Origin: Candidatus Zixiibacteriota bacterium
GTDB lineage: Bacteria; Zixibacteria; MSB-5A5; GN15; JACZUZ01
Reading direction: 5' to 3'
Assembly: GCA_024280835.1 (NCBI GenBank)
Contig: JAJRPJ010000012.1
Coordinates: forward strand, 337,842 to 401,841
DNA length: 64,000 nt
The translations under genes and the position numbers were made by a program. A model generated the notes under the pieces. That model worked only from the letters and a program-made list of their open reading frames with translations. It searched no databases and was not told the origin of the DNA. Each line of letters begins with the position of its first letter. The first letter of the stretch is position 1. Shown here in pieces: positions 4,251 to 58,531 of the stretch.

Positions 4251-4500
4251 CGCTCTGGAAATCCTTCTCTACCATCTCGCCGTTTTCTTCAAGCAAAACC
4301 TTAATTTTCTTCTCGGCCTGCCCCAACTTTTCACGACAAAACTTTGCGTTCTGCATGCCCTCAGTATAAAGCCCAATCGCCGCATCAAGTGTCGGCTCAC
4401 CCTCTTCAAGCTCTTCGCTAATTTGCCGCAAACGCCGCAATGAATCTTCGAAATTCATATCCTTTGCAGCGCTATCTGCCTTAGTCTTTTTCGTAGCCAT
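4243..4500 (-). CDS. xseB: Exodeoxyribonuclease VII small subunit
   Basis: Small helical subunit that binds the long C-terminal helix of XseA to form exonuclease VII, which degrades single-stranded DNA. The core MNFEDSLRRLRQISEELEEGE followed by LDAAIGLYTEGMQ is the standard XseB pattern. The frame could begin upstream at 4527, inside xseA. I prefer the ATG at 4500 because AGGAACGAGAAG directly precedes it and it falls just after the xseA stop. That gives 85 residues, close to the family norm. The short lysine-rich N-terminus (MATKKTKADSAAK) is a lineage-specific addition. Confidence 0.92.
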   Translation of the reverse strand: MATKKTKADSAAKDMNFEDSLRRLRQISEELEEGEPTLDAAIGLYTEGMQNAKFCREKLGQAEKKIKVLLEENGEMVEKDFQSDE

Positions 4501-4510
4501 CTTCTCGTTC

Positions 4511-5794
4511 CTACTCGGCAGAGCCAAAGTGTCTCTCAGAAATAGAAATCACTTTAGTCCGCGCCAATCCTTTATCAAATATAACTTCGATTTCATCATC
4601 CTTGCGCAATTGTGCTGCATCACGAATCACATCGCCAGAGTCCAAACTCTCAACGACGCTTGCTCGCGCAACAGCATAACCACGCGAAAGCGTCTTCAGT
4701 GGAGAAAGTCCATCCAACCGCTGCGCCAACATTACCAGCGCATTCTGCTTGACCCGCAAACTATTCACAGAAGCCAAAGCAAACCTCCGCGACTGATGAT
4801 CCAATTCCTGCTCACGCCTCTGCACAATCTGATAAGGGTCCGCAAACACCCCGCGGCTCAAAAGCTCCGACAGTTCATCCCGACCATCAGCCACCAAACC
4901 CTGCAATGACTCAGCCATCTCATCGACAACATCCGCCACACCATCCCGCACCCGTGCCGCTTCCCAAGCCACAATCTCCGCCGCAGCGCTCGGGGTCGGA
5001 GCGCGATAATCCGACACAAAATCCGCCAGAGTCCAATCAATCTCATGACCCACCCCAGTCACAACTGGCTTTGCCGAACGCTCAATCGCCCGCACAACAG
5101 TCTCAGTGTTAAAACGCCACAAATCCTCAAGCGACCCACCACCGCGACCAGTAATTATCAAATCCACATCCGAGCGTGTATTGAAATAATCAATCCCTCT
5201 CTCAATCTCAAACTCCGCCCCCTTGCCCTGCACTGCCGCAGGATAAATAATCAACTTTTGCAAAGGATTGCGCCGTGTGAATACATTTATCATATCTCGA
5301 ATAGCCGCGCTACTCGGCGACGTCACAATTCCAATTGTCAGTGGATAGGCAGGTAATCGTTGTTTGCGTTCATCAGAGAAAACACCCTCTGTCTCAAGTC
5401 GCTCATACAACTGCCGAAAAGCAACTTCCAACTCCCCAACACCCAGCGGCTCAATCCTGCGGATATTCAATTGATACTGTCCGCGTGGCTCATATAGCGC
5501 CAGCGACCCAAATGCCCGAATCTTCATCCCCGCTTCAAGCTTAAACTTCAAAGATGTAGCGTTAGCTTTCCACATCACCGCGCTAATCGTCGCGCCTGCA
5601 TCTTTCAAAGAAAAATAATGATGCCCCGAAGGCCCATAGAGTTTGTAATTGGAAATCTCCCCCTCAACAATCACCTGAGAGAAATTATCCTCCAGCACAC
5701 CCTTAATAATCCGAGTAATCTCACTAACACTAAAAACACGCGGTTCAGACCTGTCAAACATATCTGCTTCATTATGAGAATAAGAATCGTTCAT
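4511..5794 (-). CDS. xseA: Exodeoxyribonuclease VII large subunit
   Basis: Catalytic subunit of exonuclease VII. The N-terminal OB fold is visible as FSVSEITRIIKGVLEDNF, VIVEGEISNYK and GHHYFSLKDAGATI. The catalytic region contains GIVTSPSSAAIRDM, DLIITGRGGGSLEDLW and VTGVGHEIDWTLADFVSD, with the conserved histidine and aspartates. A helical stretch and the SRGYAVAR ending (near residue 380) close the protein. At about 427 residues it is a normal length. A TTG at 5815 would add seven residues rich in Gly and Tyr. The ATG at 5794 is the more credible start, though no strong ribosome site is present. It leads the xseA-xseB-ispA-SIR2 unit. Confidence 0.94.
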   Translation of the reverse strand: MNDSYSHNEADMFDRSEPRVFSVSEITRIIKGVLEDNFSQVIVEGEISNYKLYGPSGHHYFSLKDAGATISAVMWKANATSLKFKLEAGMKIRAFGSLALYEPRGQYQLNIRRIEPLGVGELEVAFRQLYERLETEGVFSDERKQRLPAYPLTIGIVTSPSSAAIRDMINVFTRRNPLQKLIIYPAAVQGKGAEFEIERGIDYFNTRSDVDLIITGRGGGSLEDLWRFNTETVVRAIERSAKPVVTGVGHEIDWTLADFVSDYRAPTPSAAAEIVAWEAARVRDGVADVVDEMAESLQGLVADGRDELSELLSRGVFADPYQIVQRREQELDHQSRRFALASVNSLRVKQNALVMLAQRLDGLSPLKTLSRGYAVARASVVESLDSGDVIRDAAQLRKDDEIEVIFDKGLARTKVISISERHFGSAE

Positions 5795-43170: not shown

Positions 43171-44625
43171 TTAGTTCCTCTCTTGCCAAGTATAGAATTC
43201 ACCCATCCCATCCTCCAAGGCGCCAGATTTCACCAATCGCGCCATAACCGATGAAGCCAATTGATTCCAAAGCCAATATCGATGAGCGGATGTCAATGTA
43301 ATATCATCTCGCTCAAACTGCGCTTTGACAGCAACCTCAAATTCACCACGTATCGAAACTAAAGGATCACTCAAAACATTGACAACTTTAGCCACACGCT
43401 CTTTATCATAATAATACATCAAAGTGATCTTACCCACAGGCAAACGGTAACTCGGCCGCGTCCTGACACTCGGCCCTGTCCTAATACAAGTCACCGAAGG
43501 AACATGGTCACCAAAAACCCTGTGCCTCGTTGAGGAATCATAAAAGTAAAACTCATCTCCATCACTGAGACTACTATCCACCAGAACATAGCCATAACCT
43601 TCCGCTGTCTCATTGCACGGCCCATCAACACTAATCAACTGAGCTGGCCCATCCCCACCAATAATAAACTGGGAACCAATAGCCTCCCACAAAACAATCC
43701 CACCTACCAAAGGAAACAAATGTTGCACCATACCCGTCCCCTCAAGTGTCGCGCTAGTCCCCTTCGTCACCAAACCAGCGTCCATCATCTCTTGACGCTT
43801 ATCAACAAACTTCGGAAGCGCAACTTCAAGCGCATCGCTCATCTTCTTGGAATAGACATCAATAAGCGTCTTGTTAGAACTAGCAGACAGACCATCAATC
43901 GTGGTCAGGGTGGATTGATACAAACTTTTTTCATCAATCCGCACAAAACCATACTGCTCCATCGTTCGCATCACTCTTGAAACCACAGCAAATGGCGCCC
44001 CCAAACGCTTGGTTAGCGCAGTTGCAGAAAGAGGCTCTCTCAAATATTGATGTATCAAGAGCGACAAATCAGTATTCAACGAAGGGTTATACTTAAGCAC
44101 ACTCCCCGCGCGGGGCATAGTGTTCTCAAACTCCACTAATCCGCTTGGAATCTCTGCAGTCACCGAAAGCGTATCTACAAAAATATCCTTTCCAAACCGC
44201 ACATCATCCAAAGTATCCACAACATCATAAAACCCTAACTTCAAAGTGACATACGAAAGATTCTCAAGCACATCGACTATAAAACTAATTTCCTTCTCTT
44301 CGTCAGGGACAAAAATATAGTTCGACTGAAACTTCCTAACCGCGCTATAGCGGCGAAGTGGCGAACGAGTTTCACTCTGCGCCACAAAGAACTTGTAATC
44401 ACCACTGGTATTCTGCACACGAACAACAACTCGCTGCGCTCCCCAATGCAATTGGCTAACATCAAGACGACTTATCACCCAGTCCTTTGTGACAATCTCG
44501 GATGACGCAGTCTCTGATGAAGCGTTGCAACCACTACCTATGATTAACACCGCCAACAGTGTCGAACAAATTGATAACCCAATACTGCGACGACCAATTA
44601 CTCTATTCGATAAATTCTTGCTCAT
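43171..44625 (-). CDS. Large lipoprotein with a winged-helix-like segment
   Basis: 484 residues. The signal peptide ends in LIIGSGC, so the protein should be lipidated at about Cys33 and exported. The N-terminal part is beta-rich (VVVRVQNTSGDYKFFVAQSE). Residues ~190-235 (LLIHQYLREPLSATALTKRL, then VVSRVMRTMEQYGFVRID) look like a winged helix of MarR/ArsR type, which is odd for an extracytoplasmic protein. The rest has helical and beta parts without known motifs (QHLFPLVGGIVLWEAIG). It is followed within two bases by the smaller lipoprotein. No function can be proposed beyond an envelope complex. Confidence 0.75.
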   Translation of the reverse strand: MSKNLSNRVIGRRSIGLSICSTLLAVLIIGSGCNASSETASSEIVTKDWVISRLDVSQLHWGAQRVVVRVQNTSGDYKFFVAQSETRSPLRRYSAVRKFQSNYIFVPDEEKEISFIVDVLENLSYVTLKLGFYDVVDTLDDVRFGKDIFVDTLSVTAEIPSGLVEFENTMPRAGSVLKYNPSLNTDLSLLIHQYLREPLSATALTKRLGAPFAVVSRVMRTMEQYGFVRIDEKSLYQSTLTTIDGLSASSNKTLIDVYSKKMSDALEVALPKFVDKRQEMMDAGLVTKGTSATLEGTGMVQHLFPLVGGIVLWEAIGSQFIIGGDGPAQLISVDGPCNETAEGYGYVLVDSSLSDGDEFYFYDSSTRHRVFGDHVPSVTCIRTGPSVRTRPSYRLPVGKITLMYYYDKERVAKVVNVLSDPLVSIRGEFEVAVKAQFERDDITLTSAHRYWLWNQLASSVMARLVKSGALEDGMGEFYTWQERN

Positions 44626-44720
44626 TAACAGAACCTCAACATCTCTATATTATGTATAAGAATATCTTTGTCTCAGCTTATGTTTCAGCGTCAATGCCTA
44701 ATTATCGTAACTGTAAACTA

Positions 44721-45881
44721 CTAACTCGCAGACTTCTGACGCCGAGCGGCCAATTGACCACAAGCCGCCGCAACATCTCGTCCACGGCTAGTCCTAACTG
44801 TCACTATCACACCCTTCTTAACCAACCCTGCAGCAAATCTGTCAACTGCTCTGGGCTCAGGACGCTCAAAATCAAGTCCAGGCACAGGATTGTAAGGCAA
44901 CAAATTCACTTTGCAGTCCAACTTCCGTGTCAATGTACTCAAAGCTATGATATCCTCAAAAGTATCATTGAAACCTTTCAGAAGCACATACTCAAAGGTT
45001 ATACGTCGACCAACAGTTTTAGTATAATATTGCGCAGCCGAAATCAAACCATCCAGATCAAATGTATGCGCAACTGGCATCAATGTCTCGCGCTTAGTTT
45101 GCGTCGCGGCGTGTAAAGAAATAGCCAGATTAACATTCAAACCAGAATCAGCCAGCCGCTTAATTTTTGGAGTCACTCCCGCTGTCGAAACAGTAATCCT
45201 CCGCGGAGAAACACCCATTCCAGTCGGATCTGTAATTATCTTTAGCGCCTCAATCAAGGCCCCATAATTATTGAACGGCTCACCCATACCCATAAAGACA
45301 ATATTACTAAAGGCCCGCTCACCTTTAAGCGTCCGCAAATGCAACAATTGTGCGACTATCTCACCAGCGGTAAGATTACGCTTTAGATCTAAAGTCCCCG
45401 TCGCACAAAACTTGCAAGCCAAAGCACAGCCGACTTGAGAAGAAACGCAAGCCGTCGTCGTATTCCGATCAGGAATCAAAACCGTCTCAATTTCCGCCGC
45501 ACCTTCCAACCCAAAAAGATACTTCTCAGTGGTATCAGTACTCTTGGCGAATTCCAACTCAACCAAAGGTGTAATCCGAAATTCTTTCTTTAGCTCAGCC
45601 CGCAAATCCAAAGGCAAATCAGACATCAAATCAAAATCCGAACACTGTCGACCATAAAGCCAAGTGAATATCTGTCGGCCATAAAATCCAGCCCGCTTAC
45701 GCGAAACCATCAATTTCTCTAAATCAGACTTCGAGAAGCCAAGCATTTCAGCGCCAGATTCAAGCTCGCTCTTGACATTCATAGAATTTGAATCAATAGA
45801 ATCACTTGCCGCAGAGACAGGACCTGATAGGGCGTCTAAACCACCTGATTCTTCGCTATTTATTTTATCATTATTCGTCAT
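44721..45881 (-). CDS. rlmN: Dual-specificity rRNA/tRNA (adenine C2)-methyltransferase RlmN
   Basis: Radical-SAM enzyme methylating A2503 of 23S rRNA and A37 of some tRNAs. The 4Fe-4S motif is CVSSQVGCALACKFCATGTL. Also present are FSNIVFMGMGEPFNNYGALI, RRITVSTAGVTPKIKRLA, NLAISLHAATQTKRETLMPV, and the C-terminal catalytic cysteine in TVRTSRGRDVAAACGQLA. The N-terminal domain includes KRAGFYGRQIFTWLY. An extra ~45 residues of acidic/serine-rich sequence precede the conserved part; a later start is possible. The length of 386 is slightly above average for that reason. Confidence 0.95.
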   Translation of the reverse strand: MTNNDKINSEESGGLDALSGPVSAASDSIDSNSMNVKSELESGAEMLGFSKSDLEKLMVSRKRAGFYGRQIFTWLYGRQCSDFDLMSDLPLDLRAELKKEFRITPLVELEFAKSTDTTEKYLFGLEGAAEIETVLIPDRNTTTACVSSQVGCALACKFCATGTLDLKRNLTAGEIVAQLLHLRTLKGERAFSNIVFMGMGEPFNNYGALIEALKIITDPTGMGVSPRRITVSTAGVTPKIKRLADSGLNVNLAISLHAATQTKRETLMPVAHTFDLDGLISAAQYYTKTVGRRITFEYVLLKGFNDTFEDIIALSTLTRKLDCKVNLLPYNPVPGLDFERPEPRAVDRFAAGLVKKGVIVTVRTSRGRDVAAACGQLAARRQKSAS

Positions 45882-46069
45882 CGGCTGAACATAGCTATTT
45901 ACTGCTAGATTTCAAGTACATTAAGCCTTGCACTGACAAAAATAGCAAAATACGGAGCGGTCTCTCCTATTGTAGCCTCAAAGCGAGGCCGATAACCAAT
46001 ATATAGCCCTAGAGCCGCGAATACTGGGAATAGTTAGATGGAAATAGTTACAGTGGAAGCAATCATAAA

Positions 46070-46270
46070 ATGAATCTGACAGCCGCAGGCATTTCGGAAA
46101 TGCAAACAGCCTCAAGCCTAATCGGTCAGGCGGTCAGAGAGTCCAGGGACAATAAATACGCCCAAGCCGCCAAGGAAATCGCCAATCTAAACTGGCGTTT
46201 CCCTGAACCGACTGGGCCACCACTAAACGGCGCAGGGCTACAAGGCGGGTTCATAGACATCCTCGCCTAA
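46070..46270 (+). CDS. Possible small protein, 66 aa, resembling a flagellar rod-type N-terminal motif
   Basis: ATG at 46070 with GGAAG about 11 bases before it. Third-position base use looks like that of accepted genes. The start MNLTAAGISEMQTASSLIGQ with IANLNW near residue 42 faintly recalls the N-terminal helix motif of flagellar rod/hook proteins (ALxxMQTAS...IANxNT). The C-terminal third is Pro/Gly-rich. A GCCGATAA sequence, the sigma-28 -10 consensus, lies at 45988-45995, but without a matching -35. It stands alone on the plus strand between rlmN and the PhaR-like gene. Confidence 0.5.
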   Translation: MNLTAAGISEMQTASSLIGQAVRESRDNKYAQAAKEIANLNWRFPEPTGPPLNGAGLQGGFIDILA

Positions 46271-46313
46271 CCGACAAAAAGAGACCTCTCACCCGATACC
46301 TCCTGTAAAGCTC

Positions 46314-46946
46314 CTACAGCTTACTAATCTTCTTATCAAGCTTTGCCATCGAGCGAATCAGCTTATCCACCTTCTTGTTCAAAGCATCCAAATCATTCTT
46401 CTTGGCAACCTTAAGCTTCTCAACTGCGGCCTGAACTTCCGTCCCGACTTTACTAGCCTGCTTGGTAACCTTTTCGCGGAATTCCTCAGTAGATTTGTCG
46501 GCTTTATCCAAAAGCTCCATAACCGCTTCCTTGCGCTGTGACTTCGTCAAATCGCCAGACTTGATAAGCTGATCGACAACTTCCTCAGCCTTCTTTTTCG
46601 TCAAATTGAACACACCAATTGACGCCAAAATTGTGTTTCTCAAAATACTCATAGACAATGTACCTCCTTCTGTAATTAATTCACTCAGGTTTCTCAACTG
46701 ATTCTGATTATTGCTCCAACTGGGACTCTCTCCCGCTAACATCCGCGAAAGCGATTCCACTGTTACATCTCGTCCACTCTTGTTCTCAATGATTTGGATC
46801 GACTCGCCAGCAGCCAGTAATTGCTTCAAGTCCTTATGAGTAATTGTCCGCTTGTCCGTCGAATCATAAAGACGTCGATTGCTATAACGCTTGATAACAC
46901 GAACATTCGAACTCGCTTTTCCTTTGGCTTCCTTTTTTTGCATCAT
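46314..46946 (-). CDS. PhaR-type polyhydroxyalkanoate regulator N-domain fused to a phasin-like coiled coil
   Basis: Residues ~17-60 (VRVIKRYSNRRLYDSTDKRT, ITHKDLKQLLAAGESIQII) are the PHB/PHA accumulation regulator DNA-binding domain, as in PhaR. After a linker, residues ~100-210 form long amphipathic helices (LTKKKAEEVVDQLIKSGDLT, KLKVAKKNDLDALNKKVDKL), resembling granule-associated phasin/PhaI-like proteins. So one chain may bind both DNA and granule or membrane surface. No phaC synthase is in the window. It has a strong promoter of its own at 46999-47026. Confidence 0.83.
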   Translation of the reverse strand: MMQKKEAKGKASSNVRVIKRYSNRRLYDSTDKRTITHKDLKQLLAAGESIQIIENKSGRDVTVESLSRMLAGESPSWSNNQNQLRNLSELITEGGTLSMSILRNTILASIGVFNLTKKKAEEVVDQLIKSGDLTKSQRKEAVMELLDKADKSTEEFREKVTKQASKVGTEVQAAVEKLKVAKKNDLDALNKKVDKLIRSMAKLDKKISKL

Positions 46947-46998
46947 CTAACCAATACTCACTAACCCCGCTTAATGACCCTACCAGCAGCCTACTTGC

Positions 46999-47026
46999 AG
47001 TATAGTGCACCGCACCATAAAGTCAA
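46999..47026 (-). promoter_or_regulatory. Sigma-70 type promoter for the PhaR-like gene
   Basis: Minus-strand TTGACT (47021-47026) and TATACT (46999-47004) with a 16-base spacer, 50 bases upstream of the ATG at 46946. Both hexamers match the consensus at five of six positions. Confidence 0.7.
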
Positions 47027-47117
47027 GACAAATAAACAGCGCAACAGAGCCCTACAGGCCCATGCTCGCACCCCAAAAGACAATTTCGCTTAGAAACAAT
47101 TCTGATTATGGGAATTT

Positions 47118-47528
47118 CTAAACACGATTCGGACGCGCCTTACCAGAAGCCAAAACTATCTGCACAATCCCAAGCAAGCGATCACCAGAAAATGGCTTCT
47201 TGATAAACATATCCGCGCCAGACTTAAACGACCGACCTTGGTCTTCGTCCTTATCTTTACCCGTAAGAAAAACAACAGGAATATCAGCCGTAGAAGGATC
47301 AGCCTTCAACTGACTGCAAACAGCATACCCGTCTTCCCCAGGCATAGTAATATCAAGCAATATCAAGTCTGGCTGAAAAGCTGAAAGCTGGTCAAACCAA
47401 TGTTTGGTCGAGTTAAGACAAACTACTTCGTAATTAGCTGCCTCGAGGAACTCACGAACGATATTGGTAATATCTGGTTCATCATCGATAACTAAAACTC
47501 TAGCTTCTGGGCGTTTGGCGTTATCCAT
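47118..47528 (-). CDS. Receiver-only response regulator (CheY-like), copy 2
   Basis: 136 residues consisting only of a receiver domain: acidic pair VLVIDDEPD, phospho-acceptor Asp in PDLILLDITMPGEDGY, Thr in VVFLTGKDKDEDQ, and Lys in FIKKPFSGDRLL. No output domain is present, so it must signal by protein contact. The ATG at 47528 is chosen over a TTG 12 codons upstream that precedes a purine-rich site. It follows another receiver-only gene by 78 bp; both are closest to PilH/CheY-type single receivers and could serve pilus or flagellar control. Confidence 0.9.
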   Translation of the reverse strand: MDNAKRPEARVLVIDDEPDITNIVREFLEAANYEVVCLNSTKHWFDQLSAFQPDLILLDITMPGEDGYAVCSQLKADPSTADIPVVFLTGKDKDEDQGRSFKSGADMFIKKPFSGDRLLGIVQIVLASGKARPNRV

Positions 47529-47606
47529 ATCAGTCTGTCCGCTTCCTTCCTTGAGTATTGACAATTGCCTCTTTCGGCAATCAACACAACTAAGCGTTCT
47601 ATTCTC

Positions 47607-47987
47607 TTAATGCCCTAACGATGCCATCGTTAAGTTAACTATCTCTATCAAACTACTATTGGCAAACGGCTTACGAATATAAGTCGAAGCGCCCATTTCA
47701 AATGAACGACCAGCGTCCTCTTCGGCAGTCTTACCTGAAAGAAAGACAACTACAATCTCATCAAGATCGCCTTTCTCTTTGAGACGACGACAAAACTCAT
47801 AGCCATCTATTTTAGGCATCCCAATATCCAACAACAACAAATCAGGCTTATCATTGACTACCGCCTTGAGCCCATCTTCAGGGGAATTGCAGGCTTGGAT
47901 ATCATAACCCTCATTTTCAAGAACCGTACTGATAAGTGTCGTAATCATCGGCTCGTCGTCAACAATTAGTACTTTCCCTTTTGGCAT
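47607..47987 (-). CDS. Receiver-only response regulator (CheY-like), copy 1
   Basis: 126 residues: VLIVDDEPMITTLISTVLEN, phospho-acceptor Asp in DLLLLDIGMPKIDGYEF, Ser at the Thr position in VVFLSGKTAEEDAG, and Lys in YIRKPFANSSLI. It is paralogous to the downstream receiver; both have (T/S)GK followed by a D/E cluster and GRSF. A GGGGCGGCT site precedes the ATG. The partner kinase is not in the window. Confidence 0.9.
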   Translation of the reverse strand: MPKGKVLIVDDEPMITTLISTVLENEGYDIQACNSPEDGLKAVVNDKPDLLLLDIGMPKIDGYEFCRRLKEKGDLDEIVVVFLSGKTAEEDAGRSFEMGASTYIRKPFANSSLIEIVNLTMASLGH

Positions 47988-48347
47988 AGCCGCCCCTCAA
48001 ATATCCAAACTTAGTAAAGCCCCTTAACTATCTGTGACTTGTCGTCACTCCAATCTCACAGGCGCTACCACAATCAATAAGCTACAAGTCAACCTGCTAC
48101 ACTTAGCTATCGGCAAAGAGCCTCTGTCAATTAGCGTTTGCCTAGGTAATGGCCCAACACAAAACTAGACTTCCCCAGAAATTCCAAACCCAACCCCACC
48201 ACCCAGTTTCGAATTGAAAAGTGACGACGCCCACCAACCAAATCAGTTTCACTTAGAAACCATACACCCAATTCTATAACAGCTTTTTTTGCAAGCTCGG
48301 TGGCCCCATCCACTTGGGTCTTGTTGAATAAACGCCCACCTGTTGGA
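47988..48347. other. Intergenic region with a decayed coding fragment
   Basis: No intact gene. A stretch at 48251-48300 (minus reading ELAKKAVIELGVWFLSE) matches 50343-50390 (QAKKTVVELDVWVF) at both base and residue level. Both look like remnants of one former coding sequence. A CTTGTTGAATAAACG sequence near 48320 echoes the CTTGTTGATAAA end of the repeat that follows. Confidence 0.45.
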
Positions 48348-48420
48348 GGCTTGTTGATAAAGTCCGAAACCGTTGCGCTGGGTCTTGCGACGGCGCTTTT
48401 TGCCGTCGTGTGACCCGGCG
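48348..48420. repeat. REP family B copy 3 with the CTTGTTGATAAA end sequence
   Basis: GGCTTGTTGATAAAGTCCGA leads into GTTGCGCTGGGTC...GTGTGACCCGGCG with an inner CGACGGC/GCCGTCG stem. It shares its first 20 bases almost exactly with the left end of the element at 33584, linking the two loci. The opposite terminal repeat is not present here. Confidence 0.65.
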
Positions 48421-48572
48421 TTTTCTTCTTGTGAAAAGTCATCCAATATTGTATTGTCTATGGCATGACAACACAAAGAAACTAAGCCCAAACCCTTGGG
48501 CCATCTGGCCGTTACACGGTGGAACAAGGCGAGACACTCATGCAGTGTCTTAACCAAAAACCAAGGAACCAC

Positions 48573-49046
48573 ATGAAACAAACTATCACCCAATACCTCC
48601 TCGCCGCTTTTCTCTTCGCAGGCTGCGCAGCCACAAATCAAGAGACAGCGCCTCAAGACTCGGCACAGCTCGAAGCCATCGTGGAGGACATTCGTGTTGG
48701 CTGGGAGCAGGGCGACGGCGCCCCGTTCTTTAACCACTTCCTAGACTGGAACGGAGCGCGCTACTTTGAAGGCGGCGGACAAAACATCGGACTAAAAGAC
48801 TTGGTGGAAAATCACGTGGAACCAGAGGCTGAGTTGGGTCTTAGCCTCGGATTCTCGAACATCCAGACTCACTTCGAGGGGAACTTTGCATGGGCCGTAG
48901 TCGACTCCGAAATCAAACTTACAACCTCCGACGGCCGAGTTATTCACAACCGCGGTCACGGAACCTACCTGTTCCGATGGATCGATGGCGCTTGGAAAGT
49001 CGTCCACACCCAGTCAGCAAGTTCGCCAGTCCGTAACAAAAACTAG
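48573..49046 (+). CDS. NTF2/SnoaL-like (DUF4440-type) lipoprotein
   Basis: 157 residues. The signal peptide MKQTITQYLLAAFLFAGC ends in a lipobox. The mature domain, AQLEAIVEDIRVGWEQGDGA, FFNHFLDWNGARYFEGGGQN, then HFEGNFAWAVVDSEIKLTTS and WIDGAWKVVHTQSA, is the cone-shaped NTF2-like fold common to ketosteroid-isomerase and SnoaL-like proteins. Such domains may bind small ligands; no catalytic residue can be assigned. AAGGA five bases before ATG 48573 sets the start, and the longer frame from 48519 is rejected. It is bordered on both sides by REP-type repeats. Confidence 0.82.
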   Translation: MKQTITQYLLAAFLFAGCAATNQETAPQDSAQLEAIVEDIRVGWEQGDGAPFFNHFLDWNGARYFEGGGQNIGLKDLVENHVEPEAELGLSLGFSNIQTHFEGNFAWAVVDSEIKLTTSDGRVIHNRGHGTYLFRWIDGAWKVVHTQSASSPVRNKN

Positions 49047-49119
49047 AATCAGTGATTTCGCCCCAGACTGTCCGAAAGAGTATCTGTGACAATGGGGCCT
49101 GCTCTAAGAGTATCGACTA

Positions 49120-49167
49120 GTTGTGTCGGGTCCTTGTTTTCGCCTCGCGAAAAGAGTGACCCGACAC
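49120..49167. repeat. REP-like palindrome, family B copy 4
   Basis: GTTGTGTCGGGTC...GTGACCCGACAC with an inner TTTTCGC/GCGAAAA stem. It is the best-preserved copy, almost matching 21869-21916. It lies just downstream of the NTF2-like lipoprotein gene. Confidence 0.78.
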
Positions 49168-49205
49168 GTCCCCACATAGAAAACGCCAAGTCACACAACG
49201 AACTC

Positions 49206-49242
49206 GGGTACCCCACCCACTTGCGGTGGGTTTAGATAGAAT
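49206..49242. repeat. REP-like repeat, family C copy 1
   Basis: GGGTACCCCACCCACTTGCG followed by GTGGGTTTAGATAGAAT. CCCAC and GTGGG pair around CTTGC. Further copies are at 55371, 57631, 58450 and 58491. Confidence 0.75.
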
Positions 49243-49322
49243 CCCCAGATTCAAAAACCTTCTTCGCTCGCATGTGACACAATCACCATCAATACTCCGC
49301 AAGGCCCCCCCACCACTCGCAT

Positions 49323-49465
49323 GGTCGCCCACAGCTTGCTGTGGGTTAATCGCAAACATAGAAGCGAGCATAAAGAAAACCATTGCCTGATGACAAAAAA
49401 TGATACATCCGAATTGTTAACCTTGTACAAAAACGATATATTCCCACAGCAAGCTGTGGGCGACC
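49323..49465. mobile_element. 143-bp element bounded by a perfect 23-bp inverted repeat
   Basis: GGTCGCCCACAGCTTGCTGT followed by GGG (49323-49345) is perfectly inverted at 49443-49465. Each arm is itself a hairpin (CCCACAGC/GCTGTGGG). The 97 bases between have no recognised gene. The right arm abuts the transposase remnant at 49471. Confidence 0.7.
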
Positions 49466-49470
49466 CAGCT

Positions 49471-49560
49471 GTTAAGAGAAACCTAGTGAAGACACCCGAA
49501 GAATGGAAGTGGTCCAGCGCCGGATGGTATGCTGGAGTTACTAACGGGTCATTGAGGTAG
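49471..49560 (+). pseudogene. C-terminal remnant of a REP-associated (RAYT/Y1, IS200-like) transposase
   Basis: The frame reads VKRNLVKTPEEWKWSSAGWY then AGVTNGSLR and a stop. This matches the well-known tail of RAYT transposases (NPVKRGLVK.PEEW.WSS..WY.G....L). The catalytic HUH and tyrosine parts are missing; upstream sequence is the 143-bp inverted-repeat element. So this is a decayed enzyme whose REP-like substrates surround it. Confidence 0.7.
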
Positions 49561-49592
49561 ATGAAATTGAACATGTTGAACCAGCAATCTAA

Positions 49593-49625
49593 CTTATCAC
49601 ACCGCAAGCGGTGCGGCACCCGGCG
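49593..49625. repeat. REP-like repeat, family D left copy
   Basis: CTTATCACACCGCAAGCGGT followed by GCGGCACCCGGCG. It matches the inverted copy at 50214-50246 at 31 of 33 positions. It lies just upstream of the lipoprotein gene at 49648. Confidence 0.8.
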
Positions 49626-49647
49626 TTTCTATACTAGGAAGTACACA

Positions 49648-50199
49648 ATGAAATTTACGAAGAACGTCTGCAAAATGTCCGAAGTCTTTTCATTGTGTCT
49701 TGTGTGTGTGCTCATGCTATCTTCGTGCTACAGATACTATATTTATCGTTTTAACCCTGAAGTAGTTTCGGTGCATGATTGGGAAATAGATGTATTTGCC
49801 AGCTTTAGGGAGGGTGGGAAAAACATGATAAAGAAACCCTCTAATGACCCTGAGATTCGAGAACGACAATATTGGCATATGAATATTAGTTTTAAGAACG
49901 TGTCTCTTATAGCTTCGAATCAAGTTCCTGAGTTGGAAAATATTGCTGTACTGTATTCGAATAGTGGGAAGCGTACTATAATTCAGGCTCCTATTAGAAG
50001 AACTCACAGATTCGCTCAAGTGATGGACTACAGCTACTCTATTGACAGTCTTGCTCTCCCAGATACAAACGACAATGAATTTGACTTGAGCTTCGACTTG
50101 CAGCTAATCGATTCGGTTACACAAGATGTTACTCTAGACACAACTCTGAAAATACATGCCAAACTGGACCGTCATTCTGAAGTGTGGGTAGGTCATTGA
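49648..50199 (+). CDS. Lipoprotein of unknown function inside an inverted REP pair
   Basis: 183 residues. ATG 49648 follows AGGA; a hydrophobic segment ends in the lipobox VLMLSSC. The mature protein begins YRYYIYRFNPEVV and is predicted beta-rich (YWHMNISFKNVSLIASNQVP, YSIDSLALPDTNDNEFDLSF). No family recognised. Its order (lipobox, tyrosine-rich start, central strand pair, a 'DSL.L....F.L' block) is loosely like the tandem pair at 6055-7433, but similarity is too weak to claim. Base use is AT-rich compared with smpB next door. It is enclosed by the family D inverted repeats, suggesting it moved as a cassette. Confidence 0.78.
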   Translation: MKFTKNVCKMSEVFSLCLVCVLMLSSCYRYYIYRFNPEVVSVHDWEIDVFASFREGGKNMIKKPSNDPEIRERQYWHMNISFKNVSLIASNQVPELENIAVLYSNSGKRTIIQAPIRRTHRFAQVMDYSYSIDSLALPDTNDNEFDLSFDLQLIDSVTQDVTLDTTLKIHAKLDRHSEVWVGH

Positions 50200-50213
50200 G
50201 ATACTGGCAGGGT

Positions 50214-50246
50214 GGCCGGGTGCCGCACCGCTTGCGGTGTGAGAAG
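50214..50246. repeat. REP-like repeat, family D right copy (inverted)
   Basis: GGCCGGGTGCCGCACCGCTT followed by GCGGTGTGAGAAG, the inverted partner of 49593-49625. It starts 14 bp after the lipoprotein stop and contains its own CCGC/GCGG stem. Confidence 0.8.
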
Positions 50247-50294
50247 TTGGACAATTACCAAACTTCCAGAAACATCTTGCGAATAGTTAAGTAG

Positions 50295-50318
50295 GGCAGA
50301 ACCCGAAGTGGTTCTGCC
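50295..50318 (+). terminator. Hairpin downstream of the cassette, possible terminator
   Basis: GGCAGAACC-CGAAGT-GGTTCTGCC is a perfect 9-bp stem with a six-base loop, followed by ATTTTC. It could end transcription of the lipoprotein cassette before smpB, or be another REP-like unit. A decayed coding fragment resembling 48251-48300 follows at 50343-50390. Confidence 0.5.
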
Positions 50319-50405
50319 ATTTTCGATGTGCAAGAAAGGCCACACCTAAAAACCCAAACATCCAATTCTACCACGGTTTTCTTTGCCTGTAGCCCCTCCG
50401 TACCG

Positions 50406-50462
50406 TATTCTCTCTGAGGAACACTCTTCAAGGAACGCTCCTTAGCGCTCCAGCTAGAGAAA
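50406..50462. repeat. Degenerate ~14-16-nt CTCT/GAGGAA array, locus 4, before smpB
   Basis: TATTCTCTCTGAGGAA, CACTCTTCAAGGAA, CGCTCCTTAGCG and CTCCAGCTAGAGAAAC follow one another. It ends 14 bases before the smpB ATG, so it forms the smpB leader. It belongs to the same style of array as loci 1-3, though less regular. Confidence 0.4.
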
Positions 50463-50476
50463 CAGGCAAATTAACC

Positions 50477-50968
50477 ATGGCAAACAAGACAGAAAACACT
50501 CCCAAAAGCGATAGCTCGCCCAATCACATGATCGCTCGCAACCGCAAAGCGCGTCATGACTACGAGATAATCGACACCTATGAGGCCGGAATTTCTCTAA
50601 TCGGCAGCGAAGTCAAATCTTTACGACTCGGAAAAGTGAATATTTCAGACTCCTATGCCACAGTCACCAAAGGCCAAGCCTTCCTAAAAAATCTGCACAT
50701 ATCACCATACGCCATGGCCACAGTCAATGCCCACGAACCCTTGCGAATCAGGCGCCTACTTTTGCACAAACGAGAAATACGCAAACTAACCAGAGCCCTC
50801 GATGAACAAGGCCTGACAATTGTCCCTTTAGCCCTCTATTTCAAAAAGGGCCTAGTTAAAATAGAACTAGCAGTGGCCCGTGGGCGTAAGAAGTTTGACA
50901 AACGTGAAGCGCAGTCCAAACGCGACTCAGACAGAGCCATGCAGCGAGCTATCAAAATCGACAACTAA
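50477..50968 (+). CDS. smpB: SsrA-binding protein
   Basis: Binds tmRNA and brings it to stalled ribosomes for trans-translation. The 163-residue product shows MIARNRKARHDYEIIDTYEA, GISLIGSEVKSLRLGKVNIS, PYAMATVNAHEPLRIRRLLL and the basic C-terminal tail GRKKFDKREAQSKRDSDRAM that enters the decoding channel. The N-terminal ~20 residues are an extra polar extension. The ssrA gene is not in this window. It heads a plus-strand run with amidase, murI and rdgB. Confidence 0.96.
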   Translation: MANKTENTPKSDSSPNHMIARNRKARHDYEIIDTYEAGISLIGSEVKSLRLGKVNISDSYATVTKGQAFLKNLHISPYAMATVNAHEPLRIRRLLLHKREIRKLTRALDEQGLTIVPLALYFKKGLVKIELAVARGRKKFDKREAQSKRDSDRAMQRAIKIDN

Positions 50969-51016
50969 TTCATCACTTTAAGTAATAAGCCTAACCAAAA
51001 CGAACTTAGCTCTATA

Positions 51017-52546
51017 ATGACAACAACCGCAAGACAACCATCTCCAACTCCAACTATCGCGCGAGCGCCTTTAGCGGCCCTTCTCTTTACACTAATAGCG
51101 CTAATTGCGCTAGTCTTCTCCTTGGCTTCAACCGCCAAAGCGGAAATCGAAGTCTCAATCGCTGGCTCGTCAGAGCACATCTCGTCCTACCGCAAAGCCG
51201 GAGTCGAATACTTCTCATTTTCAGAGCTAACAGCTCTCTATGGCGAACGCCTAAGTTGGGCCATCCCCGGTATCTCCGTCGAGTACAAAGCCGGCTCCAA
51301 TCGCCTCCGCTTCCATTTAGAATCCCAATACCTAACTCTCAATGACAGCGTCTATAACTTCATCTATCCCGCTGAAATTCGCGACGGAGCCCTTTTCCTT
51401 CCAGCGATAACATTCATCCCGATCCTCAATCAAGCCCGAACAGAACAATTCCAATGGGATGCCAACAGTCGAAAACTATCAGTGCAAAGCGGCGCCTTCA
51501 ACATCACCAACCTGACAGTCAGCAACAAAGCCAACGGCCTACTAATAGAAATCCAATTAACCGAAAAACTAACCTTCCAAGTCAACGAATCCGAAGGCAA
51601 CTGGATAAACTTCAGCATACCAAATGGCTTAGCCAATCGTAGCCTAATCGAATCACGCCGCTCCGCCAGAGAAATACGCGACATCAATGTCTTCCAATTC
51701 GCCAATTCCGCACAAGTCTCGATCCGCCTACGCAAAAAACCACATGCCTTCACCGCCAAATACAACGCCGAGTCTGGGAAAATCCAAATCGCAATCCGTA
51801 ACCCAAACTACAAACCCAAAGACAAACCACCCCATGCAGGACAAATCGGCCCTGACAATACAGTCGACCTCATCGTCATCGATGCAGGACACGGCGGAGC
51901 AGACAATGGCGCAATCGGCAGGCGTTACACCAAAGAAAAAGACATCTCACTGAAAATAGCCCAAGAGCTCGCCAAAATTATCAGAAAAGACAAACTCTTT
52001 CGCGTCGCGCTCACCAGAGACCGTGACGTCTATGTCTCCCTAGAAAAACGAGCCCAAATCGCAAATGACGCCCAAGCCGACCTCTTCATCTCAATCCATG
52101 TCAACGCCAATGTCAACAGACAAGCCCGTGGCTCTCAAGTCTTCTTCCTAGCCCCTGCAAAAACAGACGCAGGTCGCGCACTGGCTCAAGCAGAAAACGC
52201 CAGCTTCCTTACCCACAAAAACAACACCCAACTAGACGTAGCCGACGACCTAGCTATCATCGTCAACGACATGATTCAAAACTCATACGAAGAAGTCTCC
52301 GCCGACCTCAGCACAATCATTCAAAGTGAATTCGACCGAGCCTTAGGCATCCCATCCCGCGGAGTCGACCAAGCAGGGTTCGTTGTTCTCAATCAAGTCT
52401 ACATGCCCTCGGCGCTAATTGAGGTAGCCTTCCTCTCCAATGCCAAAGAAGAAAAACTCCTACGCGATAAAAAGTTTCGCAAGAAAGTCGCTAAATCAAT
52501 TTACAAAGCCCTAAAACGCTTCAAACGCAAATACGAAAACAAGTAG
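51017..52546 (+). CDS. N-acetylmuramoyl-L-alanine amidase (Amidase_3) with AMIN-like domain
   Basis: 509-residue periplasmic zinc amidase cleaving the lactyl-amide bond between glycan and peptide. The signal peptide ends STAKAEIE. Residues ~50-135 resemble a copper-amine-oxidase N-like/AMIN-associated domain (YFSFSELTALYGERLSWAIP). An AMIN-like region lies at ~165-255, and Amidase_3 at ~282-500. Zinc ligands are seen in LIVIDAGHGGADNGAIG (His), the following Glu in KEKDISLKIAQELAK, and FISIHVNANVN (His); the catalytic Glu is in SALIEVAFLSN. It is 48 bp after smpB and 18 bp before murI, so the three are probably co-transcribed. Confidence 0.93.
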   Translation: MTTTARQPSPTPTIARAPLAALLFTLIALIALVFSLASTAKAEIEVSIAGSSEHISSYRKAGVEYFSFSELTALYGERLSWAIPGISVEYKAGSNRLRFHLESQYLTLNDSVYNFIYPAEIRDGALFLPAITFIPILNQARTEQFQWDANSRKLSVQSGAFNITNLTVSNKANGLLIEIQLTEKLTFQVNESEGNWINFSIPNGLANRSLIESRRSAREIRDINVFQFANSAQVSIRLRKKPHAFTAKYNAESGKIQIAIRNPNYKPKDKPPHAGQIGPDNTVDLIVIDAGHGGADNGAIGRRYTKEKDISLKIAQELAKIIRKDKLFRVALTRDRDVYVSLEKRAQIANDAQADLFISIHVNANVNRQARGSQVFFLAPAKTDAGRALAQAENASFLTHKNNTQLDVADDLAIIVNDMIQNSYEEVSADLSTIIQSEFDRALGIPSRGVDQAGFVVLNQVYMPSALIEVAFLSNAKEEKLLRDKKFRKKVAKSIYKALKRFKRKYENK

Positions 52547-52564
52547 CCCATCCAGAAAGTTATT

Positions 52565-53470
52565 TTGACAGACCAATCCAACAAAAAACCAATCGGCATC
52601 TTCGACAGCGGACTCGGTGGACTAACAGTCCTCAGCCCACTTCTCGATAATCTCCCAGCCGAATCTACAGTCTACTTAGGCGACCTAGCTCACACACCCT
52701 ATGGCGATCGCACACCCGATGAAATTCGCAAATTCGCAGTCGCCGGCCTACGTTTCCTCGCCCAACATGACATCAAAGCCATGATAATCGCTTGCAACAG
52801 CGCTTCAGCAGTCGCTTTGCCAGACTTGCTACGTGAGGCAACCTTCCCAGTTTTCGATGTAGTCACACCAGGCGCCAGAATGGCCGCCAAGCACAGCAAG
52901 AGCCGCTCAATCGGAGTAATCGGAACCACCGCAACAATCAACTCAGGCGCCTATGCCAACGAATTGAAAACAATAGACTCAAACATCCAAGTCTTCCAAT
53001 CCGACTGCCCAGCGCTAGCGCCAATGATTGAAAAAGGTGTCAGTGGCATCAGCGAATATGTCCCTGTCATCAAAGATTGCCTCTCCCGTTTACCAATGAA
53101 CGAAATCGACACCATCATCCTCGGCTGCACTCACTACCCCCACGTCCGCGAAGTCTTCCGCGCTGTCTGCGGAGAAGAAATGCGCCTAATCGACTCTGGC
53201 CTAGCCACCGCCGAAGCCATCGAAGAAGCCCTTCGAGAAACTGGCAACCTAGTCTTCGACCCTCAATCACAACCAGACCCTGTTGATGTCACCAGCGGAA
53301 CAAGAAAATATTTTGTCACTTCGACAAGTGTCATGAACCGCATGGAATCCTTCAGAACAATGGCGCAAGATTTCTTGGGAGTCGAATCACTAGCAGTCCA
53401 AGAAGCCAACATCGAACCTAGCTCAACAAAAGATACGTCCACTCCCGCGAATTCCTTATTCAAATACTGA
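52565..53470 (+). CDS. murI: Glutamate racemase
   Basis: Supplies D-glutamate for peptidoglycan. The 301-residue product has PIGIFDSGLGGLTVL, VYLGDLAHTPYGDRTPDEIR, the first catalytic Cys in MIIACNSASAVALP, FDVVTPGARMAAKHSKSRSI, and the second in IILGCTHYPHVREVF. The start is TTG 52565, which begins the conserved part at the expected distance. A short C-terminal tail of Ser/Thr extends past the usual end. It lies between the amidase and rdgB genes on one strand. Confidence 0.95.
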   Translation: MTDQSNKKPIGIFDSGLGGLTVLSPLLDNLPAESTVYLGDLAHTPYGDRTPDEIRKFAVAGLRFLAQHDIKAMIIACNSASAVALPDLLREATFPVFDVVTPGARMAAKHSKSRSIGVIGTTATINSGAYANELKTIDSNIQVFQSDCPALAPMIEKGVSGISEYVPVIKDCLSRLPMNEIDTIILGCTHYPHVREVFRAVCGEEMRLIDSGLATAEAIEEALRETGNLVFDPQSQPDPVDVTSGTRKYFVTSTSVMNRMESFRTMAQDFLGVESLAVQEANIEPSSTKDTSTPANSLFKY

Positions 53471-53477
53471 GCGCCAT

Positions 53478-54086
53478 ATGGACTTAATCCTAGCCACAAA
53501 CAATGATGACAAGATCCGTGAGATGTCTGCCTTACTTGCAGACTTAGACATAACCCTCAAAACCCGACGTGACTTCGATTCATTTCCAGACATCGAAGAA
53601 ACAGGCTCCACCCTCCAAGAAAACGCCATCCTCAAAGCCCGAGGAATATCTTCAACCTTCGGCCTCCCCGCCTTGGCTGATGACAGTGGTCTCGAAGTCG
53701 ACGCCCTAAACGGCGCCCCGGGAATATTCTCAGCGAGATTTTCTGGCCCCGAAGCAACCTATCAATCCAATTGCCAAAAACTACTAGAAGACCTCACAGG
53801 AATATCCACAGAAAAAAGAACCGCACGATTTCGTTGTGTAATTGCGATCGCATGGGGAGAAGACACAAATAATCTAGACATAGCCGAAGGAACCGTCGAA
53901 GGACTAATCAGCGAAGAACAGCTCGGCGAAGGAGGTTTCGGCTACGATTCAGTCTTCTATTACCCACCAACCAACCAAACTTTCGCCCAAATCTCAGAAT
54001 CAGAAAAGAACCGCATCAGCCATCGCGGACTAGCTTTACAAAAAGCTCGGAAGATGCTCGCCAGACGGTTGACGCCGAGGCAATAA
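53478..54086 (+). CDS. rdgB: XTP/dITP diphosphatase (RdgB/HAM1)
   Basis: Removes non-canonical purine triphosphates (XTP, ITP, dITP) from the nucleotide pool. 202 residues: LILATNNDDKIREMSALLAD, FPDIEETGSTLQENAILKAR, LPALADDSGLEVDALNGAPG then IFSARFSG, EGGFGYDSVFYYPP and RISHRGLALQKARKM, all standard. ATG 53478 lies 7 bp after the murI stop. murI-rdgB pairing is common in bacteria. Confidence 0.96.
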   Translation: MDLILATNNDDKIREMSALLADLDITLKTRRDFDSFPDIEETGSTLQENAILKARGISSTFGLPALADDSGLEVDALNGAPGIFSARFSGPEATYQSNCQKLLEDLTGISTEKRTARFRCVIAIAWGEDTNNLDIAEGTVEGLISEEQLGEGGFGYDSVFYYPPTNQTFAQISESEKNRISHRGLALQKARKMLARRLTPRQ

Positions 54087-57769: not shown

Positions 57770-58441
57770 ATGCCCGCTACCCAAAAACAAAAAAATGCCA
57801 ATCAAAAAAACGCCCAACAATCAACAGGACCAATAACCTCCGCTGGCAAACAGCGTTCATCACGCAATGCCACCAAACACGGACTAAACTCATGTGACAC
57901 AGTCATCAACTCCCCACACCTCAAAGAAAGCCAGACAGATTTCGACTCCCTCGTCGAATCCCTCATCGATGAACTAAACCCCAGCGGAGCCTTCCAAACC
58001 CAGCTCGTCCACAAAATCGCCAACTGCCTCTGGCGCCAACAACGTGCCATCAACGCCGAAACCGCCCACCTCAACCGCGAAATAGAATCCCAAGTCAGCC
58101 TCCGCACAAACCTCAACCCAGAACAACAAGCCACCCTAGCCACCGACAGATCCATCCCCCGCGGCGCCTTCATGCTCGCCCTCCTCCGCTACGAAATGCG
58201 CATAGACATCCAACTCAGCAGAGCCTACAATCTCCTCAAACGCCTCCAAGCCACCGAAAAAGCCGAGAAAGCAGAAATACTACAAGATTCCAACACCCAC
58301 ACCCCGTATATGCAAAACGAACCCATTTCACCACCCTCACCACCCCCACCAACCCCACTTACAGCCCCCCAATACCTCAAACCAGAAGACCGCCCCACAA
58401 ATCACTGCCTCGAACCCATCCTCCATCCTCAAACAGAGTGA
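57770..58441 (+). CDS. Conserved protein with the 'NAQxSTGP...NAxKHG' motif, unknown function
   Basis: 223 residues from ATG 57770; the frame continues upstream into a REP repeat, which I exclude. The N-terminus KQKNANQKNAQQSTGPITSA, GKQRSSRNATKHGLNS is a recurring signature of small uncharacterised proteins I have seen in many environmental bacteria, often in several copies. Residues ~60-180 are helical (FDSLVESLIDELNPSGAFQT, QLVHKIANCLWRQQRAINAE). The C-terminus is Pro/Ser-rich and probably disordered. Codon use is extremely C-rich at third positions. No function known to me; the basic start suggests nucleic-acid binding, which is speculation. Family C repeats flank it on both sides. Confidence 0.75.
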   Translation: MPATQKQKNANQKNAQQSTGPITSAGKQRSSRNATKHGLNSCDTVINSPHLKESQTDFDSLVESLIDELNPSGAFQTQLVHKIANCLWRQQRAINAETAHLNREIESQVSLRTNLNPEQQATLATDRSIPRGAFMLALLRYEMRIDIQLSRAYNLLKRLQATEKAEKAEILQDSNTHTPYMQNEPISPPSPPPPTPLTAPQYLKPEDRPTNHCLEPILHPQTE

Positions 58442-58449
58442 ATCAAGAC

Positions 58450-58531
58450 ACGGGTACCCCATCCGCTTGCGGTGGGTTTAGTTGCAATACACGGGTACCC
58501 CATCCGCTTGCGGTGGGTTTAGTTGCAATAC
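58450..58531. repeat. Exact tandem duplication of REP family C (copies 4 and 5)
   Basis: A 41-bp unit beginning ACGGGTACCCCATCCGCTTG and ending TTGCAATAC occurs at 58450-58490 and again, without any difference, at 58491-58531. It starts eight bases after the stop of the STGP-family gene. Confidence 0.88.

Follow-up and report, generated by a model that had tools for sequence, protein, structure and literature searches.

A lipoprotein gene that lies between two inverted copies of one REP, beside the remnant of a RAYT gene, raises the question of whether it is cargo of a cassette ended by the two REPs, a companion of the RAYT, or a gene that REPs came to surround by coincidence. The locus belongs to the window, a stretch of 64,000 nucleotides (G000:C14:337842-401841) of the 3.31-Mb draft genome (G000) of a Candidatus Zixiibacteriota bacterium, and coordinates given without a contig are window positions. 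The evidence below leads us, tentatively and at slightly under even chances, to the view that the repeats, here called family D, are REP units of one RAYT family, and that the lipoprotein is a recurrent companion of RAYTs rather than cargo of a REP-ended cassette. A lipoprotein family found repeatedly next to RAYTs would open the role of the RAYT locus in its host to direct testing. Being enclosed by two REPs does not in itself make a gene a cassette; the polarity of the REPs, the end of the RAYT unit and the existence of a gene-free copy should be checked first.

The two inverted arms (49588-49624 and 50215-50251) are 37 nt long each and complementary at 35/37 positions (95%), with 590 nt and one gene separating them. 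The left D REP (49588..49624, + strand) is the right-hand REP of a RAYT unit, and its head points right, towards the lipoprotein gene. The right D REP (50215..50251, - strand) is a solo inverted copy whose head points left, also towards the gene, and no RAYT sequence was recognised by eye to its right. Taken alone, the hairpin energies of both are unexceptional (z -1.5 and -1.2). An earlier note on this DNA had reported 33-nt inverted copies (49593-49625 and 50214-50246) identical at 31/33 positions, with 22 bp (49626-49647) and 14 bp (50200-50213) between the arms and the ORF, and all of these values were reproduced. Its description of the repeat as REP-like also holds, except for the length, since a comparison of six copies puts the whole REP unit at about 37 nt instead of 33. 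These six D REPs, from G000 and from G001 (same genus), are alike over the ~37-nt unit and not beyond it, apart from a RAYT tail common to the window and contig C10 of G000.

The D pair is not a chance match, because the 24-nt core of the repeat occurs without mismatch at only three places in the 3.31-Mb genome, two of which are the arms described here and the third C10:221384; a fourth place appears at 3 mismatches. Among 194 relatives, a 29-base pattern allowing up to 2 mismatches was found in two genomes only, G000 (3 copies) and G001 (2 copies). The exact 20-nt core gave 18 stretches in 84,980 species genomes, comprising 14 from Zixiibacteriota CSMAG_807, one from Dive100_bin1.56 and three single ones in unrelated bacteria, and gave no exact match in IMG/VR. 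The 14 CSMAG_807 stretches hold 21 copies at up to 3 mismatches; an inverted neighbour less than 1 kb away was seen in one stretch only (L090), facing outward, with several copies lying too near the stretch end for a full 1 kb. In CSMAG_807, where the core is most numerous, the repeat is thus nearly always single, a pattern that the earlier note had itself named as speaking against a cassette.

To the left of the pair lies the C-terminal, 5'-truncated remnant of a RAYT gene (49466..49592, + strand), whose frame is broken by one base when compared with the C10 copy. A RAYT-type remnant had been noticed here before and had been placed 33 bp from the repeat; the remnant is present, but its frame continues to the stop codon TAA at 49590-49592, so that the RAYT end abuts the left REP. 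A cognate REP directly at the RAYT end was found in the window, where the REP begins at the stop codon, and likewise at C10 and at G001:C1. Positions 49514-49624 share 96% DNA identity over 111 bp with G000:C10:221301-221411 (RAYT tail plus REP), a match that extends exactly to the end of the REP arm. The remnant also matches the RAYT of G001:C1 (63% over 27 aa), which is itself split over two frames and has a D REP directly behind it. A Pfam search with the 39-aa RAYT piece gave no match, and the identification is by likeness to the C10 tail and the G001 RAYT. At C10, the RAYT tail and D REP occur without the lipoprotein gene, and the next ORF encodes a 419-aa protein. No inverted left-hand REP was found upstream of the window remnant, which at its truncated end meets an F1 doublet from another family. 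Judged from these alignments, the RAYT unit ends with the left D REP, and the lipoprotein gene lies just outside that unit. Around the C10 tail (L006, G000:C10:218400-224400), an F5 REPIN is enclosed together with the RAYT tail and D REP by a direct repeat 30 bp or more in length (L006 positions 2689 and 3011); the second copy of this repeat starts at the REP end, and either a target or a tandem duplication could account for it.

The arrangement was compared with known systems. PMC8266576 and PMC6006769 define a REPtron as a RAYT/TnpA_REP gene with cognate flanking REPs; RAYTs, according to PMC8266576, are domesticated transposases, mostly in single copy, for which mobility of their own is not in evidence. 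The window resembles a REPtron in its broken RAYT end followed by its REP, and RAYTs of related genomes are closely flanked by inverted REPs at 32 of 41 loci; it differs in that the RAYT is truncated and that an unrelated lipoprotein gene and an inverted REP come after it. The 41 loci are a selection from among the matches listed in the RAYT scans, and the remainder comprises eight without an inverted REP pair by this test and one without enough flank. REPINs and REP-flanked RAYTs are likewise described in parts of PMC3116915 and PMC3686654. The D pair shares with a REPIN or BIME its two inverted copies of one REP, whereas the close doublets in G000 have 58-97 nt between outward-facing arms; with heads inward and 590 nt and a gene between, the D pair is not arranged like a close doublet. 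IS200/IS605-type elements with an accessory gene (tnpA plus tnpB, as treated in part of PMC6006769) are alike in their HuH transposase kinship, hairpin ends and nearby second gene. However, the window lipoprotein is unrelated to any known transposon gene in Pfam and NCBIfam and is positioned outside the RAYT unit, past its terminal REP. No description of a RAYT-linked lipoprotein was found among the papers listed by searches of open-access full text.

Polarity was assessed in a doublet census covering C14 and 60 kb of C10, in total 462 kb of G000. Outward heads were seen in seven same-family pairs: six close doublets, whose arms are separated by 58-97 nt, and a pair that flanks a RAYT with 568 nt between. 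Two pairs have inward heads, the window D pair and an F4 pair whose copies, separated by 1239 nt, lie on either side of the C10 419-aa ORF. By a simple rule, the 32 RAYT-flanking pairs divide into 19 outward, five inward and eight unclear. With both heads facing the lipoprotein gene, the D REPs are thus oriented contrary to most RAYT-flanking pairs and to all seven outward pairs of the census. The same 462 kb contains four copies of an asymmetric REPIN, with two different hairpin arms and 58 nt between (C14:207883-207997, C14:282107-282221, C10:193838-193952 and C10:221188-221302), which is likely a mobile doublet.

The lipoprotein ORF (49648..50199, + strand) is intact and encodes 183 aa with the lipobox LSSC. 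It is indeed AT-rich, as the earlier note had stated: its GC content is 39.7%, and only one of 269 non-overlapping contig ORFs of at least 150 aa is lower (36.9%), whereas its GC3 is unremarkable (38/269 ORFs as low or lower). The protein has no match in Pfam or NCBIfam at E up to 1. As the sole query it retrieved only itself from the protein database (1 match, 23 candidates) and from the 194 genomes, with no second gene copy in its own genome or elsewhere among them. An orphan gene was considered and dropped after profile searches found a family. A protein at G012:C16 (L190) resembles the window protein (BLASTP 3e-4, 0/500 shuffles), and a two-row profile led to a metagenomic relative, P0006, on a 651-base contig, at 58% to the G012 protein and matching the window protein at BLASTP 5e-6 (18% over 164 aa). 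A second member in G000, at G000:C13, lies ~33 bp behind a diverged F1 REP and has no significant pairwise match to the window protein. A four-row profile gave eight matches in six of the 194 genomes, including a marginal one in G174 (E=5.9e-4; kinship to the same domain only). Once this was dropped, six loci in 5/194 genomes were retained: G000:C14 (window), G000:C13, G012:C16, G032:C27, G038:C45 (two repeats of one ORF) and G073:C150. Leave-one-out profiles recover all six, the window at E=2.3e-8 versus 0.027 for the next match (6164 ORFs). By these profile comparisons, the window lipoprotein belongs to a patchily distributed family without a Pfam or NCBIfam match. Single-sequence and three-row structure models are strand-rich and of low confidence (mean pLDDT 52.1 and 53.6).

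The contexts of the six loci differ in their RAYT content. The window has a RAYT tail and G012:C16 a RAYT, each with REPs on both sides of the gene. At G032:C27, the stop of a RAYT tail, assigned by eye from the RAYT of G032:C40, precedes the gene by 45 bp, an interval that holds a REP hairpin; downstream come a REP and another RAYT. G000:C13 has REPs upstream only, G073:C150 has REPs on both sides in the same orientation (by eye), and no RAYT lies within 9 kb at G038:C45, where a short hairpin is the most that could be recognised. In 3/6 loci (window, G012:C16 and G032:C27), the gene lies directly behind a RAYT 3' end and REP on the same strand, and REPs occur at 5/6. The presence of homologous lipoproteins beside RAYTs in two other genomes suggests that the gene is a recurrent companion of RAYTs. 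The window was chosen for its REPs; with it left out, 2/4 family loci in RAYT-scanned genomes (40 genomes, ~129 Mb, 180 matches) adjoin a stop-free RAYT match. Random placement would give this with a probability of ~6e-5, or of 0.005 to 0.02 if genes are 10 to 20 times likelier near RAYTs (1.1 kb/gene), figures that are rough because the RAYT scan is what brought in G012 and the enrichment factor was guessed. In addition, a second lipoprotein type occurs near the family member at G000:C13 (L025, G000:C13:212903-215934, positions 1817-2341) and at G032:C27 (L219, G032:C27:3500-11000, positions 4449-5015), and these two are homologous (E about 1e-7).

To see whether the layout recurs, the 32 RAYT loci with a REP pair were scanned, within the flanking sequence available, for another inverted copy of the right REP lying 250 bp or more away. 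The order RAYT, REP, one ORF and inverted REP was found downstream at 5/32 loci (L139, L178, L180, L190 and, weakly, L189), and upstream analogues occur at L174, L198 and L202. L208 (downstream) and L184 (upstream) are ambiguous because a same-orientation copy scores higher. At L190 (G012:C16), the enclosed ORF is the homologue of the window lipoprotein. At L139 (G001:C1), a RAYT is followed by a D REP, 15 bp, lipoprotein B, an F2-like half REP and an inverted D REP; lipoprotein B shows no clear homology to the window lipoprotein (19/500 shuffles reach its score) and has a relative, P0003, at 67%. The inverted copy at L180 is part of an element ending in a RAYT tail and so appears, by eye, to be a deletion derivative.

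The same chromosomal position was compared among relatives. G001 keeps the gene order rlmN-like, phaR-like, two response regulators, smpB, amidase, murI and rdgB; its regulator-smpB gap is ~0.4 kb, versus 2490 bp in the window, and contains neither a REP (by eye) nor a lipoprotein gene. Among 39 relatives with an smpB match, 29 loci were examined; a divergent regulator lies 110-972 bp from smpB in 27 of them, and none was found in two. G001 thus lacks the entire block rather than exactly the REP-gene-REP interval. The simplest account of the block is that this lineage gained it, with loss in G001 as the alternative. No tRNA or tmRNA integration site was found in 44000-54000.

The block itself contains five recognised REPs from three families plus two REP-like hairpins. 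Besides the D pair, these include an F7 REP (49207..49235, + strand) and a REPIN-like F1 doublet (49323..49465, unstranded; arms 49323-49345 and 49443-49465) with heads outward and 97 nt between, which abuts the RAYT remnant on its left and whose REP type also flanks the RAYT of G000:C3. Among the hairpins, the F9 one with a GTAG head (50291..50318, + strand) was also scored terminator-like; by eye it resembles REPs of RAYTs in G024 and G012, and it is a single copy in the 462-kb census. A second lipoprotein-like ORF in the block carries a SnoaL-like domain.

For the lipoprotein as a companion of RAYTs speak the RAYT tail and REP without the gene at C10, the cognate RAYT with the same REP in G001, the inward polarity, the three family loci behind a RAYT 3' end and REP, and the enlarged regulator-smpB gap. 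Under this explanation, the right D REP would have been inserted on its own by a RAYT acting in trans, the lipoprotein gene may be read through from the RAYT side, and the pairing may reflect joint gain or joint retention. Read-through is plausible because only 22 bp precede the start codon and 49443-49647 yields no promoter-like match, the number found being that of shuffles. Recent joint movement is unsupported because the members are far apart in sequence (e.g. 18% over 164 aa), and nothing shows movement of the lipoprotein gene itself. Against a companion gene stand the missing lipobox bias described below, the lack of the lipoprotein at C10, the unrelated lipoprotein at the G001 homologue, the RAYT-free G038:C45 and the low identity among members. 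The RAYTs concerned, represented by three proxies, fall in one 15-row group of 40 rows without forming an exclusive clade. More speculatively, and rather doubtfully, some Zixiibacteriota RAYT lineages may carry an accessory module, in which a fast-evolving lipoprotein gene behind the right-hand REP, closed by an inverted REP, is kept or spread with the RAYT as a two-gene REPtron.

Coincidence within REP islands is a close second and a serious possibility: RAYTs, REPs and fast-exchanged accessory genes share variable intergenic spaces, and two REPs would have landed around a gene. The richness of the block in REPs and its SnoaL-like lipoprotein fit this, as does the census of the 41 RAYT loci, in which a strict lipobox rule gave no downstream lipoprotein bias (2/39 downstream versus 3/40 upstream neighbours), although two neighbours judged by eye to resemble lipoproteins (L139 and L179) escape it. 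A general lipoprotein bias of RAYT neighbourhoods was accordingly discarded as an explanation. Third REP copies also occur upstream of RAYTs (3 versus 5 downstream, with one ambiguous case on each side). However, chance accounts less readily for the stop-free RAYT match at 2/4 of the other family loci and for the downstream, same-strand position of the gene in all three RAYT-tail cases; we still prefer a companion gene.

A unit that ends in the two inverted REPs and is moved by a RAYT with the gene inside is very improbable: the near-identical ends 22 and 14 bp from a single gene, the same layout at G012:C16 (homologous gene) and G001:C1 (unrelated lipoprotein), the patchy family and the empty locus in G001 would suit it, but the heads face inward and likeness is confined to the REP unit, which leaves such a cassette unsupported, the left REP ends a RAYT unit that exists without the gene at C10, and a second copy of gene plus ends was found at no other site in its own genome or the 194 genomes. 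Polarity, the unit end and the C10 copy thus ruled it out as the main reading. Of the RAYT-mobilised, REP-bounded lipoprotein cassette first proposed, the REPs, the RAYT remnant, the absence of the gene from a same-genus relative and the recurrence of the layout are supported; the termination of a cassette by two REPs is not.

Further repeats were observed in and around the block. A 41-nt direct repeat (76%) lies near both block ends (48252-48292 and 50346-50386), its right copy upstream of smpB. An 80-bp stretch at 48347-48425, beginning GGCTTGTTGATAAAGT, has an 85% copy in the sister species beyond rdgB (L058 10641-10719), and its first bases also occur at several places on C14 and C10. Elsewhere in the window, 58436-58524 is a tandem repeat of an F7 REP and its flank.
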